Positions 28,707-36,210 of a stretch of DNA of 64,000 bases are shown piece by piece. The position numbers and the translations under genes are program-made. The stretch comes from Salinigranum halophilum (GTDB taxonomy: Archaea; Halobacteriota; Halobacteria; Halobacteriales; Haloferacaceae): the NCBI RefSeq assembly GCF_007004735.1, contig NZ_SSNL01000004.1, forward strand, positions 1 through 64,000. Direction: 5' to 3'. Below the pieces are notes generated by a model that was not told the origin of the DNA, searched no databases, and was given only the letters and a program-made list of their open reading frames with translations. The first letter of the stretch is position 1; the number at the start of each line of letters is the position of its first letter.

Positions 28707-30809
28707 TCAGGAGTCCGTCGTGGCGACCCGCGCGGCCGTCTCGACGGAGACGCCGGAGAGGTACTCCCCGTCGGGGCCGACCCACGTCCCCTCGGTGCCA
28801 CACTCGGGGCGGAGCCGACAAACCCTCGTCTCGGGCGGCCAGAGGACCCGGATGCGCCCGTCCTCCGCGGAGACGGTCGCCTCCTGCCGGTAGGTGACCG
28901 ACGCGCCGCCCACGGTAGCGAACCGGACGACGAGGTCGACCTCGCTCGCGCCGGACGGGAGGTCGACGCGCGTCGGACCCGCCGCCTGCGGGTGGTTCGT
29001 CACCGACGCGCCCTGAGCCGAGAGGTCCCACGCCACCGAGACGTGTCCGTCGGCGGAGTCGACGCGATAGCGGGCGACGTCCGATTCGGTCTCCAGCCGA
29101 ATCGAGGCCGACGTCGCGCCGTCGGGGGCCCCGAAGCGGGAGGTCGCCGACACGCGCTCCCCCTCGAGGACGCGAAGCCGGGTCAGTTCCGGTTCGACGG
29201 GGGTGACGGCACCGGTCCACTCGCCGCGGTAGGTGAAGCGGTACGGCGTCCGTGTCGTCGCGTCGAGCGCGCGGACGTCGGCGTCGGGCCCCTCGTCGAG
29301 GACGTAGAGCGACGAGCCGTCGAAACCGGGGTCGTTGCGGAGGTACTGGAAGGGGTGTTGCTGCCAGTCGCCGTAGGGGTCAGGCGTGTAGACGAGCGCG
29401 TCGTCGAACGTCTCGTCGTGGAACGGTTCGTACGTCGCCCCGAGGTTCTCGGTCCGCTGGCGGTTCTCCGCCCAGGGTTCCGACAGCGCCGCCCGCTCGG
29501 CGCTCGCGACGACGGGGGCCGCACAGACGAGACACAGGACGAGCACGAGACGGGCGCGACCCGGGGATAGCCGGGCGGAGACGGCGGCGCGGACCCGGCG
29601 GGCGAGCGTGACGAGGCCGACGGCACCGAACAGCGACACCGGCACCAGGAGGTCGAAGTGGTAGAACGGTCCGAGGAGGTCGATGAGTCCGTTTCGGAGC
29701 CCGTTGAGCGTCCCCCAGAAGTAGACGTTGCCGAGGACGACAGCCGGGACGAGCCCGAACACCACTAGACTCTCCTCTTGGTCGACCCACGCTTCGCGCA
29801 GCGCGACGGACACGCCGGCGGCCGCGAGCACGACGCCGAGGACGCCGAGCGGGGCGAACGCCGTGACGAAGAGCGACAGCGCCTCGACAGCGGCTTCGAC
29901 CCCGAGCGCGGGCGTGTACTGTTCGGTGTAGCCGAGGATCTCCCGTTCGCCGAAGCCGAGTCCGTCGCGGGGGGCGAAGGCCTGATAGGGGAACGTCGTT
30001 GCCGACCCGGTCACAACCACGTTGTACGCGAGGGTGAGGGCGACGAAGCAGAGACCGGGGACCGAAATGGCGGTCGCGAGTTCGATCCGCCGTCTCATCC
30101 GCCCACTCTGGACCCCTCGCCACAGCCGCCACAGCGTGTGGGCGATGAACGGTGCGGCGAACACCACCGCGGTGTAGGGACGTGCGAAGAAGGCGACGCC
30201 GACGGCGACGCCCGCGGCGACGGCGTAGCGACGGCTGTCCCGCCGGACCGCGCGGAGGTACGCGACGGCGAACGCGAGGTTCCAGAACGTCGTGGGGGCG
30301 TAGGGGAGGAACACCGACGACGAGAGCACGAACAGCGGCGCGGTCGCCAACAGGCAGACGGCGACGAGCCCGGTCGTGCGGTCGGCGACGTCGCGGCCGA
30401 GGACGTACAGGAGAAGACTCGACCCGGCGGCCACGGCCCCGAGGGTGAGTCGTGGCTCGCCGAGGAGCATCCCGACGGCGAACATCGCGGCCGGAACGGG
30501 CGCGTACTTCGGATACAGCTGTGGTCCCGCCGATGTCGACTCCTCGACGAAGAACCACGGGCGGACGAGGTCGGCGATATCGGCCGGTGGTGTCAAGAAC
30601 ATCTTCCCCTCGAGGAGCATCGCCGCCTGCAGGAGGTAGACGCCCTCGTCGTCGTTCACCGAGTGGTACGCGAAGAGGTCCATCGAGACCCACAGGACGA
30701 CCGCGCCGACCGCCAGCGCGACGACGACGGCGAGCGCGTCGAGGGGGTGGAACGAACGCCGAGAGAGCCACCGACGGCTCCGTCGGACGAGCGTCGAAGC
30801 CACGACCAC
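28707..30809 (-). CDS. GT-C/ArnT-like membrane glycosyltransferase
   Basis: The 700-aa protein has about ten to eleven transmembrane helices in residues 25-430 and a C-terminal extracytoplasmic beta domain (about 430-700). The first loop carries HSVNDDEGVYLLQAAML, the acidic motif expected of GT39/PMT-type enzymes that use lipid-linked sugars. The C-terminal domain contains DSADGHVSVAWDLSAQG. A GTG start at 30809 lies 6 bp after the ABC ATPase stop. It is therefore probably the last gene of the iron-transport operon, an unusual partner. The acceptor is unknown. Confidence 0.8.
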   Translation of the reverse strand: MVVASTLVRRSRRWLSRRSFHPLDALAVVVALAVGAVVLWVSMDLFAYHSVNDDEGVYLLQAAMLLEGKMFLTPPADIADLVRPWFFVEESTSAGPQLYPKYAPVPAAMFAVGMLLGEPRLTLGAVAAGSSLLLYVLGRDVADRTTGLVAVCLLATAPLFVLSSSVFLPYAPTTFWNLAFAVAYLRAVRRDSRRYAVAAGVAVGVAFFARPYTAVVFAAPFIAHTLWRLWRGVQSGRMRRRIELATAISVPGLCFVALTLAYNVVVTGSATTFPYQAFAPRDGLGFGEREILGYTEQYTPALGVEAAVEALSLFVTAFAPLGVLGVVLAAAGVSVALREAWVDQEESLVVFGLVPAVVLGNVYFWGTLNGLRNGLIDLLGPFYHFDLLVPVSLFGAVGLVTLARRVRAAVSARLSPGRARLVLVLCLVCAAPVVASAERAALSEPWAENRQRTENLGATYEPFHDETFDDALVYTPDPYGDWQQHPFQYLRNDPGFDGSSLYVLDEGPDADVRALDATTRTPYRFTYRGEWTGAVTPVEPELTRLRVLEGERVSATSRFGAPDGATSASIRLETESDVARYRVDSADGHVSVAWDLSAQGASVTNHPQAAGPTRVDLPSGASEVDLVVRFATVGGASVTYRQEATVSAEDGRIRVLWPPETRVCRLRPECGTEGTWVGPDGEYLSGVSVETAARVATTDS

Positions 30810-30815
30810 GGTCGG

Positions 30816-32039
30816 TCAGTCGTCTGCGCCGTGGCGGAGTTGGTCCTCGCGGTTCTCGATGGCCGGACGCTGTTCGCAGGGGAACCACGCGAGTTCGTGG
30901 TCCGCCTGGAGCGTCAGGTCGACGCGCGAGTCGAGCGGGACCTGTTCGTCGTGGTTGTGCATGCACTGGACCCGCGAGCCGTCGTCGAGCGCCACCTCGT
31001 AGAGGATGGTCGGGCCGAGGTAGCGTTTGGCCTTCACCTCGGCGTTGCCGACGATGCCGTCGTCCCCGTCCCCGTTCCCGTCGGTCGCGACCGAGACCGG
31101 GTCCGCGCGCACGTCGTCGGGTCGGACGAGGATGTCGATGCAGGTGTCGTCGTACTCGGGCGCGAGGCCGTGAATCTGTGCGCGCGGGACCGACCCCACG
31201 TCGGTCTCGACGATGTCGCCCACCACGCGGCCCGGGATGAACGACGCGTAGCCCAGGAAGCCGGCGACGAACCGCGACTTCGGGTGCTGGAACACGCTCT
31301 CGGGTTCGCCGATCTGTTCGATTTGGCCGTCGTTGACGACGGCGACTCTGTCGGAGATGCTCATCGCCTCCTCCTGGTCGTGGGTCACGGAGATGGCGGT
31401 GACGCCGGCCGCCTTGATGATGTCGCGGACCTCCTCGCGCATCGCCACGCGGAGGTCGACGTCGAGGTTCGAGAACGGTTCGTCGAGGAGGAGAATCTCG
31501 GGTTCGGGCGCGAGCGACCGCGCGAGCGCGACCCGCTGTTGCTGTCCGCCGGACAGTTCGTCCGGGTACGAGTCGGCCTGCGCCTCGAGGCCGACGAGGT
31601 CGAGCAGGTCATCGACGCGCCGGTCCGTCTCGTCCGCTGAGAGGTCCTGAAGACCGAAGGCGACGTTCTCGGCGGCCGTGAGGTGGGGAAAGAGCGCGAA
31701 CTCCTGGAAGACGACGCCGACGCCGCGCTCTTCGGGCGCGACGAACGAGCCGTCACCCGAGACGGGGTCGCCGTTGAGTCGGATGACGCCGCTGTCGGGA
31801 CGCTCGAGCCCCGCGATGAGCCGCAGGGTCGTGGTCTTGCCACAGCCTGAGGGGCCGAGCAGCGTGAGTATCTCGCCCTCGGTGACCGACAGCGAGAGGT
31901 CGTCGATGACGGGCTCAGAGCCGAAGCGTTTCGAGAGGTCTTCGAGCGCCAGCACCGGCGTCTGCGCGTCCGACGCGGTGGTCGAGTTCGAACCCGGTTC
32001 CGTCCGTCCGTCACGGTTTGAGAGTACACTATCTGACAT
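30816..32039 (-). CDS. ABC transporter ATP-binding protein, ferric iron/spermidine type
   Basis: The 407-aa ATPase of an importer shows Walker A GPSGCGKTT (near residue 62), Q-loop VFQEFALFPHL, signature LSGGQQQRVALARSL, Walker B ILLLDEPFSNLD, and switch SVTHDQEEA. A C-terminal TOBE-like regulatory domain (about 300-390) matches FbpC/PotA proteins. Its start overlaps the permease stop by 11 bp. It energises the permease 32029-33621 with the receptor 33636-34838. Confidence 0.9.
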   Translation of the reverse strand: MSDSVLSNRDGRTEPGSNSTTASDAQTPVLALEDLSKRFGSEPVIDDLSLSVTEGEILTLLGPSGCGKTTTLRLIAGLERPDSGVIRLNGDPVSGDGSFVAPEERGVGVVFQEFALFPHLTAAENVAFGLQDLSADETDRRVDDLLDLVGLEAQADSYPDELSGGQQQRVALARSLAPEPEILLLDEPFSNLDVDLRVAMREEVRDIIKAAGVTAISVTHDQEEAMSISDRVAVVNDGQIEQIGEPESVFQHPKSRFVAGFLGYASFIPGRVVGDIVETDVGSVPRAQIHGLAPEYDDTCIDILVRPDDVRADPVSVATDGNGDGDDGIVGNAEVKAKRYLGPTILYEVALDDGSRVQCMHNHDEQVPLDSRVDLTLQADHELAWFPCEQRPAIENREDQLRHGADD

Positions 32040-33635: not shown

Positions 33636-34838
33636 TTACAGCACCCCGACGTCCCGGAGCAGTCGGACGGTCCCTTCGAGGTCCGAGAGTTGTGTCAGGT
33701 CTAACCCCTGGGGTGGGTTCAATTCGTCGATACTCGGTAGCTCCCCGATGGGGTCGACCCCGGAGACGAGCGGGTACTCGAACGTCGTCCGTGCGAAGTA
33801 GTCCTGGGCTTCAGCCGAAAGGAGGTGCCGAACGAAGTTCGACGCCAGCGTCCGGTCCTCGGCGGTGTCCATGACGAGCGCGCCGGCGACGTTGAAGATG
33901 GCACCGGCGTCGCCCTCGGTGAACGCCGTCGAGATGGGGGCGTTCGGTCGCCCCGCGAGGACCCGCTGGATGTAGTAGTGGTTCGCGAAGCCGGCGTTTA
34001 TCTCCCCGTCGGCGACCGCTTGCGAGACGAGGAACTCGTCGGAGAACTCCTGGACGCCGAGTTCTTGCATCCCTTCGAGCCACGCGCGCGTCTCTTCCTC
34101 GCCGTTGAGGACGCGCATCGCCGTGATGAACGCCTGGAACGACGAGTACGTCGGCGCCCAGCCGATGGAGTCGCGGAGCGCCTCCGTCTCGGGGAACGCG
34201 AAGATGTCGTCGGGGACGTCCGCGTCGGAGAGACTGTCGGTGTTGTACGGGATGGTCCGCGCACGACCCGAGGTGCCGACCCACTGGCCGTCGGGGTCGT
34301 GGAACTCCGCGCGGACTAAGTCGAGCACTTCCTGCGGGAGTTCGACCGTCCGACCGGCGTCCTTCAGCGCGCCGAGCGCCCCGGCGTTCACCGAGAAGAA
34401 GACGTCCGCGGGGGAGTTGCCCCCCTCGGTCTGAATCTGGTTCACCAGGTCCGAGGCCGAGTTGTACCGGGGACGGACCGTGAAGTCGGGGTAGAGCTCC
34501 TCGATGTAGCTGATGAGTTCGCCGACGAGCGCTTCGCCGCGGCCGGAGTAGAGGGTGAGTTCGCCGGAGAGCTCCGGCATCTCGCGCATCGAGACGCCGC
34601 CGGAGAGCTGACGGTCGCCGAACGGGGAGCGGCCGGACCCGATCTGTCCGACGGCGGCATCACCACCGCCGCCGCCGCCGCCACCGCCACCACCGTCACC
34701 GCCGGTACTCTCGGTCGCGGTGCCGTCTTCATTACCGCCGCCCTGTCCGCCACACCCCGCGACCGACGCAACGCCGACGGCCGAGGCGACTGCGAGGAAC
34801 TGACGTCGACTTCGACCTGGGTTCGAATCGTCGCTCAT
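33636..34838 (-). CDS. Ferric-iron ABC transporter substrate-binding lipoprotein
   Basis: The 400-aa receptor has a Tat signal RRQFLAVASAVG and a lipobox VAGC (Cys29), so it is exported folded and lipid-anchored outside the cell. A poly-Gly linker (about residues 45-60) encoded by GGC/GGT repeats follows. The binding domain begins ELTLYSGRGEALVGELI, typical of FbpA/HitA-like periplasmic iron-binding proteins, with PADVFFSVNAGALGAL and NSPADVF blocks. An inverted-repeat operator sits 8-23 bp before the ATG. It is the first gene of the importer operon. Confidence 0.9.
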   Translation of the reverse strand: MSDDSNPGRSRRQFLAVASAVGVASVAGCGGQGGGNEDGTATESTGGDGGGGGGGGGGGDAAVGQIGSGRSPFGDRQLSGGVSMREMPELSGELTLYSGRGEALVGELISYIEELYPDFTVRPRYNSASDLVNQIQTEGGNSPADVFFSVNAGALGALKDAGRTVELPQEVLDLVRAEFHDPDGQWVGTSGRARTIPYNTDSLSDADVPDDIFAFPETEALRDSIGWAPTYSSFQAFITAMRVLNGEEETRAWLEGMQELGVQEFSDEFLVSQAVADGEINAGFANHYYIQRVLAGRPNAPISTAFTEGDAGAIFNVAGALVMDTAEDRTLASNFVRHLLSAEAQDYFARTTFEYPLVSGVDPIGELPSIDELNPPQGLDLTQLSDLEGTVRLLRDVGVL

Positions 34839-34845
34839 ACATTGA

Positions 34846-34861
34846 TTTAGGCCCGCCTAAA
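34846..34861. promoter_or_regulatory. Putative iron-responsive operator, ABC importer
   Basis: TTTAGGCCCGCCTAAA is a perfect inverted repeat (7-bp arms, 2-bp centre), located 8 bp upstream of the receptor start codon. The TATA-like string TATTTAGG lies just upstream on the minus strand. The half-site TTAGG resembles DtxR/Idr-family sites, and that assignment is from memory of the family. Binding here would cover the transcription start. Confidence 0.7.
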
Positions 34862-34905
34862 ACCTAAATACCTACCGGTTTCGCCGGCTTCGTCTCCCGA
34901 CGACC

Positions 34906-36063
34906 CTAGTCGTCCGCCGGCGCGGGCTGTGGCTCGACGGCCGCCAGCGCGTCGAGACACGCGAGCCAGTCGCGCATATACTCGCCGCAGTGGTTCAAGA
35001 ATGCGCCGTTGTTCAGGTCGGAGAAGTCGCCCTCGGCGAGTCGGTCGGCCATCGCGCGGAACGCCTCGGCGTAGGAGGTGGCGTCGTCACCGACCTCGTC
35101 GACGTACTCCCAGAGGTGTTCGTTGAGTTCGAGGCCGGGAACCTCGTTGTTCAGGTCGTCGAACGTCGGCCGGGGGGCCTTGTTGTGCTCACAGAGCGGG
35201 AAGCCCGAGAGCACGTCGTGACCGAGGAGGTCCGCGGCGCGCTTCAAGAAGACGCCCGACCAGATGTCGTCGAAGCGGCCGACGTCCCACGCGTTGTCGT
35301 CCATCGGGAGCTGGTAGAACGCGGGGACCACCTCGCGGCGGAACGCGAGGTTCATCGAGCAGACGGTGAGATACTGGCCCGGGTCGGCGACGAAGTCGCC
35401 GGTGAAGTGGTCTCTCGTCGTTCGGGTCTGTGCCTGTCCCCGCAGGTCGCCGTCCATCAGGATGCGGACGGCGTCGAGGTCGGGCACGTTGGTCCACAGC
35501 CCCTGTGAGGCGACGACGTAGTCGACGTCCGTGACACCTCGTTCGACCGTCTCGTCCATGGCGGCGTAGGGGTACCCGCGGGGGTAGAGGCCGTGGTCGT
35601 CGAACGCCTGGTAGAGGACGTTCACCCAGTGCTCGTCGGACCGAACGGATTCGACCTCACCCTCGAACGCGAGGTTGGCCATGTGCCGCCCGAAGAAGTC
35701 CCACTCCTCGTGCGGCAGGGTGTCGTCGTCGATGAAGACGCCGTACGCGAAGTCGTTCGCCCACAGGTACAACAGCCCGAAACTCGTCTGGGCGTGACTC
35801 GCCGCCGGGACGAGGTGGGAGAACTCCGACACCCCGTGGGCTTCGAACCACTCCTCACGACGGCTGCCGTCGAACACCTCGCCGGCGACGTCGAGGTCGG
35901 CGAGCATCTCGGTCATCGCCTCGCTGTCGCAGAAGTCCTCCGTCACGAGGACGAAGAAGAGGCGGTCGGTGTCGAATCCGTGATGTCGGGCGTTCTCCAC
36001 GTAGGCCCGCACGCACTCGTACTCTCTGATGGTTGGGACGACGACGCAGATGTCCTGACTCAT
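34906..36063 (-). CDS. RGP/GT75-like protein (UDP-arabinopyranose mutase / glucan-protein synthase family)
   Basis: The 385-aa cytosolic protein matches the reversibly glycosylated polypeptide family. It opens ICVVVPTIREYECVRAYVE and has the nucleotide-sugar binding acidic motif YGVFIDDDTLP (near residue 120). Downstream blocks include RDHFTGDFVADPGQYLTVCSMNLAFRREV and RFDDIWSGVFLKRAADLLGHDVLSGFPL. Plant relatives interconvert UDP-arabinose forms or become self-glycosylated, and archaeal roles are unknown. The start MSQDICVVVPT (36063) was chosen over an upstream ATG because an operator lies between them. It is followed by the importer operon, which has the same operator, so both are probably iron-controlled. 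Confidence 0.75.
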   Translation of the reverse strand: MSQDICVVVPTIREYECVRAYVENARHHGFDTDRLFFVLVTEDFCDSEAMTEMLADLDVAGEVFDGSRREEWFEAHGVSEFSHLVPAASHAQTSFGLLYLWANDFAYGVFIDDDTLPHEEWDFFGRHMANLAFEGEVESVRSDEHWVNVLYQAFDDHGLYPRGYPYAAMDETVERGVTDVDYVVASQGLWTNVPDLDAVRILMDGDLRGQAQTRTTRDHFTGDFVADPGQYLTVCSMNLAFRREVVPAFYQLPMDDNAWDVGRFDDIWSGVFLKRAADLLGHDVLSGFPLCEHNKAPRPTFDDLNNEVPGLELNEHLWEYVDEVGDDATSYAEAFRAMADRLAEGDFSDLNNGAFLNHCGEYMRDWLACLDALAAVEPQPAPADD

Positions 36064-36074
36064 TACCTCCGCAT

Positions 36075-36092
36075 TTTTAGGCCGCCCTAAAA
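36075..36092. promoter_or_regulatory. Putative iron-responsive operator, RGP-like gene
   Basis: TTTTAGGCCGCCCTAAAA has perfect 7-bp arms around a 4-bp centre. It matches the operator at 34846 in 14 of the shared 16 positions. It lies 12-29 bp upstream of the start codon at 36063, the same placement as in the importer operon. Confidence 0.7.
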
Positions 36093-36210
36093 TATCTATT
36101 GATTGCACGCGTGCGCGCCTCGCGAGTGGCGTCGGCCGCGACACCCAGTCCGAACCTCGACGTCGGCACCGCTCTGTCTCTCGGTTTCGGCTCGTGATGG
36201 AGCAATCGAC

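Follow-up and report, generated by a model that had tools for sequence, protein, structure and literature searches.

The first 64 kb of contig NZ_SSNL01000004.1 of the haloarchaeon Salinigranum halophilum (hereafter the window; the whole genome measures 4.2 Mb) carry an operon in which a GT75/RGP-family sugar protein precedes a ferric-type ABC importer and a GT-C membrane glycosyltransferase. The GT75 protein is one of three co-occurring enzymes, the others being a haloarchaeal dolichyl-phosphate (Dol-P) hexose transferase of the GT2 type (NF041391) and the GT-C protein. We consider it rather probable that iron starvation induces a pathway in which a Dol-P-linked sugar, probably a furanose, decorates a surface acceptor, and that this pathway forms a unit of a DtxR-type regulon together with the FbpABC importer. 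To judge from their genes, most haloarchaea under iron shortage probably coat some surface molecule with an unusual sugar, a furanose. The sequence-only reading of this locus had singled out the operator, the receptor and the GT75 protein, and in these it was right, but it overlooked the three-enzyme pathway with the GT2 and GT-C proteins.

Co-occurrence of the three enzymes was computed directly, as were protein families, operators and gene adjacency. Two sets of genomes were used for it, namely 40 relatives and a second set of 34, chosen for both states (GT75 present and absent) within the genera g8, g11, g14, g26, g55 and g58; one genome is common to both sets, and the GT75-positive member of g8 belongs to the first. 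GT75 occurs in 30 of the 40 relatives and, across the class, in 231 of 292 near-complete genomes. The GT-C protein was found in 30/30 GT75-positive and 0/10 GT75-negative relatives (one match at 2e-4 being noise), and in 16/16 and 0/18, respectively, of the second set. Pooled, 46 genomes have both genes, 27 have neither and 0 are discordant. Concerning GT2, all 34 genomes of the second set were concordant (16/16 with GT75, 0/18 without it), and it was also present in 21/21 further GT75-positive genomes. With 413.8 bits against an equivalog cut-off of 375, the GT2 protein is assigned to NF041391, and the score of this Dol-P sugar synthase and the fold of the GT-C transferase give the pair that Dol-P/GT-C extracytoplasmic glycosylation requires. 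It is not AglJ, reaching only 130–139 bits in TIGR04182 (cut-off 325), whereas the true AglJ of Haloferax denitrificans scores 437 and is encoded by a gene of its own, some 99 kb from GT2. From this distance, measured on one Hfx. denitrificans contig, the GT2 of the module in Haloferax probably corresponds to HVO_1613, an orphan Dol-P glycosyltransferase.

Both inverted repeats reported by the sequence-only reading were located by a sequence scan. The first, TGATTTAGGCCCGCCTAAAACC (core 34847-34860), lies 8 bp 5' of the ATG of the receptor gene (34838, minus strand), and the second, ATTTTTAGGCCGCCCTAAAATA (core 36077-36090), lies 13 bp 5' of the ATG of the RGP gene (36063). A GTG at 36144 would allow a longer RGP open frame, but the alignment of homologues begins with the ATG at 36063, and the operator is therefore placed upstream of the gene. 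At 0 or 1 mismatch, TTAGGNNNNCCTAA occurs in the window at these two operators and nowhere else, while 200 simulated windows (first-order Markov model of the window) contained 0 such sites. Exact operators number 10 genome-wide, the two of the window included, against 2 for a reversed control pattern, and 239 across 1.6 Mb of related loci, against 0 controls; with control counts near zero, chance palindromes were rejected as an explanation.

Conservation was studied in 80 named haloarchaeal GT75 loci, which are akin to one another, so that counts are not independent, and whose genes were called by a simple script, so that absences are soft. Downstream of GT75, FbpA was found in 76-77 of the loci, GT-C in 72 and the permease in 59. 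Within 150 bp before GT75 the operator is present with 0-1 mismatch in 78/80 loci, being exact in 66 and having one mismatch in 12 (mostly Haloferax, in which TTTGGNNNNCCTAA recurs at this position), and it has two mismatches in 2/80; the gap between GT75 and FbpA holds an exact operator in 71/77 loci. The background, by comparison, is 56 of 969 other neighbouring genes, and no operator precedes any of the intra-operon GT-C, ATPase and epimerase genes of the loci. The operator is kept before both genes class-wide, so that the proposed link withstands one condition named for its refutation, absence of the operator from other genomes with the gene pair. The small GT2 gene lies downstream in 46/80 loci and is preceded by the operator in 44/46 of these clusters and in 20/22 further loci. 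In Salinigranum halophilum GT2 is unlinked, on another contig (G000:C7:27414-28097), and has a near-exact operator, TTTGGCAAACCTAA; as the operator is retained by an unlinked gene, this is good evidence of common control.

Other genes frequent around GT75 were also considered as members. An LPG_synthase_TM gene adjoins GT75 in 28/80 loci and is preceded by the operator in 25/28, against 1/28 for the GMC oxidoreductase. It was rejected as a fourth obligate member because the sole homologue found in Salinigranum halophilum and Haloferax is a long protein without operator (in the former, a fusion of GT2 and LPG_TM); another flippase may therefore serve. HVO_1859 (UPF0104), which is up 11.6-fold under iron starvation (PMC11349517), was not supported as the pathway flippase but may still be a candidate. 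The GMC oxidoreductase and a gluconate 2-dehydrogenase subunit, near GT75 in just 28 and 22 of 80 loci, were not retained as core. The gluconate 2-dehydrogenase subunit 3 gene (e.g., L167:1525-2160) has its own operator in about half of the cases.

The operator resembles that of the haloarchaeal DtxR-family regulon (FerR/Idr/SirR/TroR), in which TTAGG half sites form a palindrome upstream of genes for siderophores and iron uptake. An iron regulon of this family in haloarchaea was reportedly described by Leyn and Rodionov in 2015 and by Martinez Pastor et al. in 2024. In the actinobacterial 19-bp IdeR consensus (PMC8464063), by contrast, the outer half sites are farther apart. Haloferax denitrificans has 25 operators versus 0 controls, and these precede FhuD-type receptors, a gluconate-dehydrogenase subunit and a diaminobutyrate-2-oxoglutarate transaminase of the siderophore type, which scores above the dat cut-off. 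Judged by sequence, the operator marks an iron regulon, since the TTAGG-type palindrome is conserved before orthologues and before established iron genes, those in Haloferax being of the siderophore-receptor and diaminobutyrate-transaminase types. A ferR regulon signal is reported for the fhu genes, with Idr, SirR and TroR as potential iron regulators (PMC11349517), and an iron(III) receptor of Hfx. mediterranei is repressed along with siderophore genes (PMC11218638). The Salinigranum halophilum genome encodes three DtxR-like proteins, whose Pfam matches are strong.

Assignment of the first gene to RGP/GT75 was confirmed with 64.8 bits in Pfam RGP (gathering cut-off 23.8) and by the fold. Its predicted model (pLDDT 82) matches MtdL in Foldseek with an E-value of 1.2e-21 and a TM score of 0.77-0.81, and the plant enzyme OsUAM2 with 0.63-0.70, at sequence identities of 25 and 18%, respectively. 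Residues D112-D114 (DXD/DDD), R162, D195, R263, D266 and H293 are invariant among aligned orthologues, and they correspond to the DDD motif, Arg159, Asp195, Arg257, Asp260 and His287 of MtdL, all shown to matter in that enzyme (PMC9937993). The likeness to MtdL and the plant UAM/RGP proteins extends from the RGP domain, the DDD motif and the catalytic arginine to the metal-binding histidine, the sugar-site Arg/Asp and the whole fold, while the archaeal protein differs from both in lying within an iron-type regulon. At the base-contact position (MtdL S86) it has Ser, as in the GDP enzyme, versus the Asp of UDP enzymes; the profile alignment to MtdL leaves out residues 1-80 and with them the MtdL positions T13 and N42, which bear on base specificity. 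Active-site geometry was not used, as the loops of the model near R162 and at 197-212 are of low confidence. The protein is thus a predicted nucleoside diphosphate (NDP)-pyranose/furanose mutase or self-glycosylating protein. In the literature collection searched, no paper on a haloarchaeal glucan-protein synthase was found. Second GT75 copies, 61-63% identical, exist in two genomes (L063:7248-8396 and L064:6257-7414). Their neighbours are a sulfatase-like gene, sugar transferase-like genes and, in L063, an LPG_synthase_TM-like protein, and no iron operator is nearby. The GT75 gene is also found on plasmid replicons of 180-490 kb (e.g., L196, NZ_CP120469.1) in Halobaculum and Salarchaeum, and in H. 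limi the whole cluster is plasmid-borne.

The remaining genes of the operon follow at short distances, with gaps of 6-14 bp or overlaps from FbpA onwards (14 bp between FbpA and permease, 6 bp between ATPase and GT-C). The gene product named earlier as an iron receptor is indeed of the FbpA type: 28 distinct PDB sequences were matched, nearly all of them iron-binding proteins, the best solved match being a ferric-iron binding protein (E-value 9.2e-66), and the di-tyrosine NHYY is retained. The ATPase matches the NCBIfam PhnT2, PotA and ferric ATPase models, all under cut-off. With a di-tyrosine receptor, a two-domain permease and an ATPase, the make-up of an FbpABC importer is complete, and by sequence the three genes encode a ferric importer of that type. 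The AlphaFold model of the GT-C protein (pLDDT 90) matches OST/AglB, ArnT, ALG9/12, AftA and Emb in Foldseek, that is, enzymes acting on polyprenyl-linked sugars, the arabinofuranosyltransferases AftA and Emb included; on the predicted model, this is a match to the GT-C fold in general and does not name the sugar.

Table 1. Genes and operators of the GT75–FbpABC–GT-C operon in the window.
Feature	Position	Strand	Basis or remark
Operator 1, TTAGGCCGCCCTAA	36077..36090	n/a	before the GT75/RGP gene; exact palindrome
GT75/RGP protein, 385 aa (NCBI: alpha-1 4-glucan-protein synthase)	34906..36063	-	Pfam RGP; MtdL sequence and fold
Operator 2, TTAGGCCCGCCTAA	34847..34860	n/a	before the FbpA gene; exact
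FbpA-type ferric-iron-binding lipoprotein, 400 aa	33636..34838	-	PDB matches; NHYY di-tyrosine
FbpB-type two-domain permease, 530 aa	32029..33621	-	Pfam BPD_transp_1, two stretches
FbpC/PotA-type ATPase, 407 aa, overlaps the permease gene	30816..32039	-	Pfam ABC_tran and TOBE_2
GT-C membrane glycosyltransferase, PMT_2 and C-terminal DUF7846, 700 aa, last gene of the operon	28707..30809	-	Pfam

In the pathway that we propose, with its steps ordered by their chemistry, high intracellular iron would keep a DtxR-family repressor bound to TTAGGNNNNCCTAA in the promoters, with transcription blocked. As iron falls, the FbpABC importer would be expressed together with GT75 and GT-C. The GT75 enzyme would then convert an NDP-pyranose into an NDP-furanose by means of its conserved arginine, and GT2, as its family suggests, would load this sugar onto dolichyl phosphate. 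A flippase, for which LPG_synthase_TM is a candidate in the loci that have it, would expose the Dol-P-sugar outward, and the GT-C protein, going by its fold, would transfer the sugar to an acceptor outside the cell, for which surface lipoproteins (FbpA, for instance), an S-layer glycan and an exopolysaccharide are possible candidates. Both the repression by iron and the furanose product are parts that we infer. More tentatively, the set may represent an archaeal pathway that spans the class, is distinct from N-glycosylation and is induced by iron starvation, transferring a furanose from Dol-P to a surface component with GT75 as its dedicated furanose source.

Several observations weigh against this proposal. 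The pairing of GT75 with GT2 rests on co-occurrence and the shared operator, with no known reaction behind it. The kinship among the loci makes the counts less telling, a point partly answered by the within-genus contrasts. A DtxR-type site could also respond to manganese. At the sugar site, D87 of MtdL is replaced by H90 and Q229 by M237, and so the substrate or chemistry of the haloarchaeal GT75 may differ from that of MtdL. Both positions vary with the substrate among characterised GT75 enzymes and belong to the substrate site without defining the family. In MtdL itself, D87N/S and Q229A abolish activity or nearly so (PMC9937993). Finally, FbpA is present in GT75-negative genomes too, and ferric uptake in itself can therefore do without the sugar pathway. 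The link between GT75 and importer drawn by the sequence-only reading consequently holds for frequent neighbours, not for an obligate pair, and such a pair was rejected. Among the weak matches in the search for FbpA in GT75-negative genomes, many were confined to the Ser/Thr/Gly-rich linker region.

Of the other explanations, one takes GT75 not for a mutase but for a self-glycosylated carrier or primer of a storage or capsule polysaccharide made in iron starvation. The invariant R162, the arginine that is autoglycosylated, and the NCBI family name fit such a role; the same arginine, however, is needed for mutase activity by MtdL and the plant UAMs (PMC9937993), and the joint occurrence, without exception, of GT75, the Dol-P hexose transferase and the GT-C protein indicates a lipid-linked pathway, which leaves the carrier role unlikely. 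Still less credit can be given to the idea that the operator is real but a constitutive glycoconjugate pathway merely lies beside the importer and is read through from the importer's promoter. The compactness of the operon from FbpA onwards would allow it, yet a further operator, that of GT75, lies upstream of the FbpA one, the LPG_synthase_TM gene also has one, and in Salinigranum halophilum GT2 keeps its operator far from the importer.

The glycosylated iron-binding molecule suggested by the sequence-only reading would make FbpA or siderophore receptors the acceptor of the glycan. Adjacency of GT75 and FbpA in nearly all loci and a Ser/Thr/Gly-rich linker behind the FbpA lipobox speak for it, but haloarchaeal lipoproteins commonly have a linker of this composition, FbpA also occurs in genomes that lack the trio, and locus L149 has GT75, GT-C and GT2 together with no FbpA called by the simple script; we regard these acceptors as improbable. 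The Dol-P-linked pathway with a surface acceptor is accordingly the reading that we prefer.

The nearest working parallel to this Dol-P-linked pathway is the AglD/AglR/AglS branch of Haloferax volcanii, in which Dol-P-mannose is added outside the cell (PMC3871713). It likewise joins a GT2 acting on dolichyl phosphate, a flippase and a membrane transferase using the Dol-P-sugar, and it differs from the present set in that iron-type operators and GT75 are part of the latter; the genes of the module are distinct from those for AglJ and AglD-type proteins. The mycobacterial decaprenyl-phosphate-arabinofuranose pathway (Emb, Aft) is similar in that a polyprenyl-phosphate furanose is used by GT-C enzymes, and the GT-C model shows a distant fold match, general to such enzymes, to mycobacterial AftA, Emb and AftD. 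There, however, DprE1/E2 form the furanose while the sugar is attached to the lipid, and GT75 is not its source. The proposal gives a testable role to three vaguely described gene families in about four in five haloarchaea and names exactly which genes should co-vary, all of which are present in the genetically tractable Haloferax. If true, it would tie metal starvation to surface glycosylation in Archaea, amount to an iron-controlled change of the archaeal cell surface and explain the wide spread of a plant-cell-wall-type mutase family among salt-loving archaea.

Further operators were noted elsewhere. At L003:8548-8686 (G000:C4:619547-619685), three lie between genes for a lipoprotein with DUF5059 and a plastocyanin domain and for an AsnC-type regulator whose C-terminus holds a cysteine cluster. 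Three more (L002:8825, 9115 and 9152; G000:C4) surround NifU-like and DUF7260 proteins, some 1.3 kb from a DtxR-like regulator, and an exact one (L001:7582; G000:C1:393581) precedes a diphthamide synthase-type ATP pyrophosphatase gene. Finally, the operator stands before a DUF7552-DUF7551 protein gene in both Salinigranum halophilum (L004:7681) and Haloferax denitrificans (L160:1501), which, on this placement, is likely an uncharacterised member of the iron regulon.
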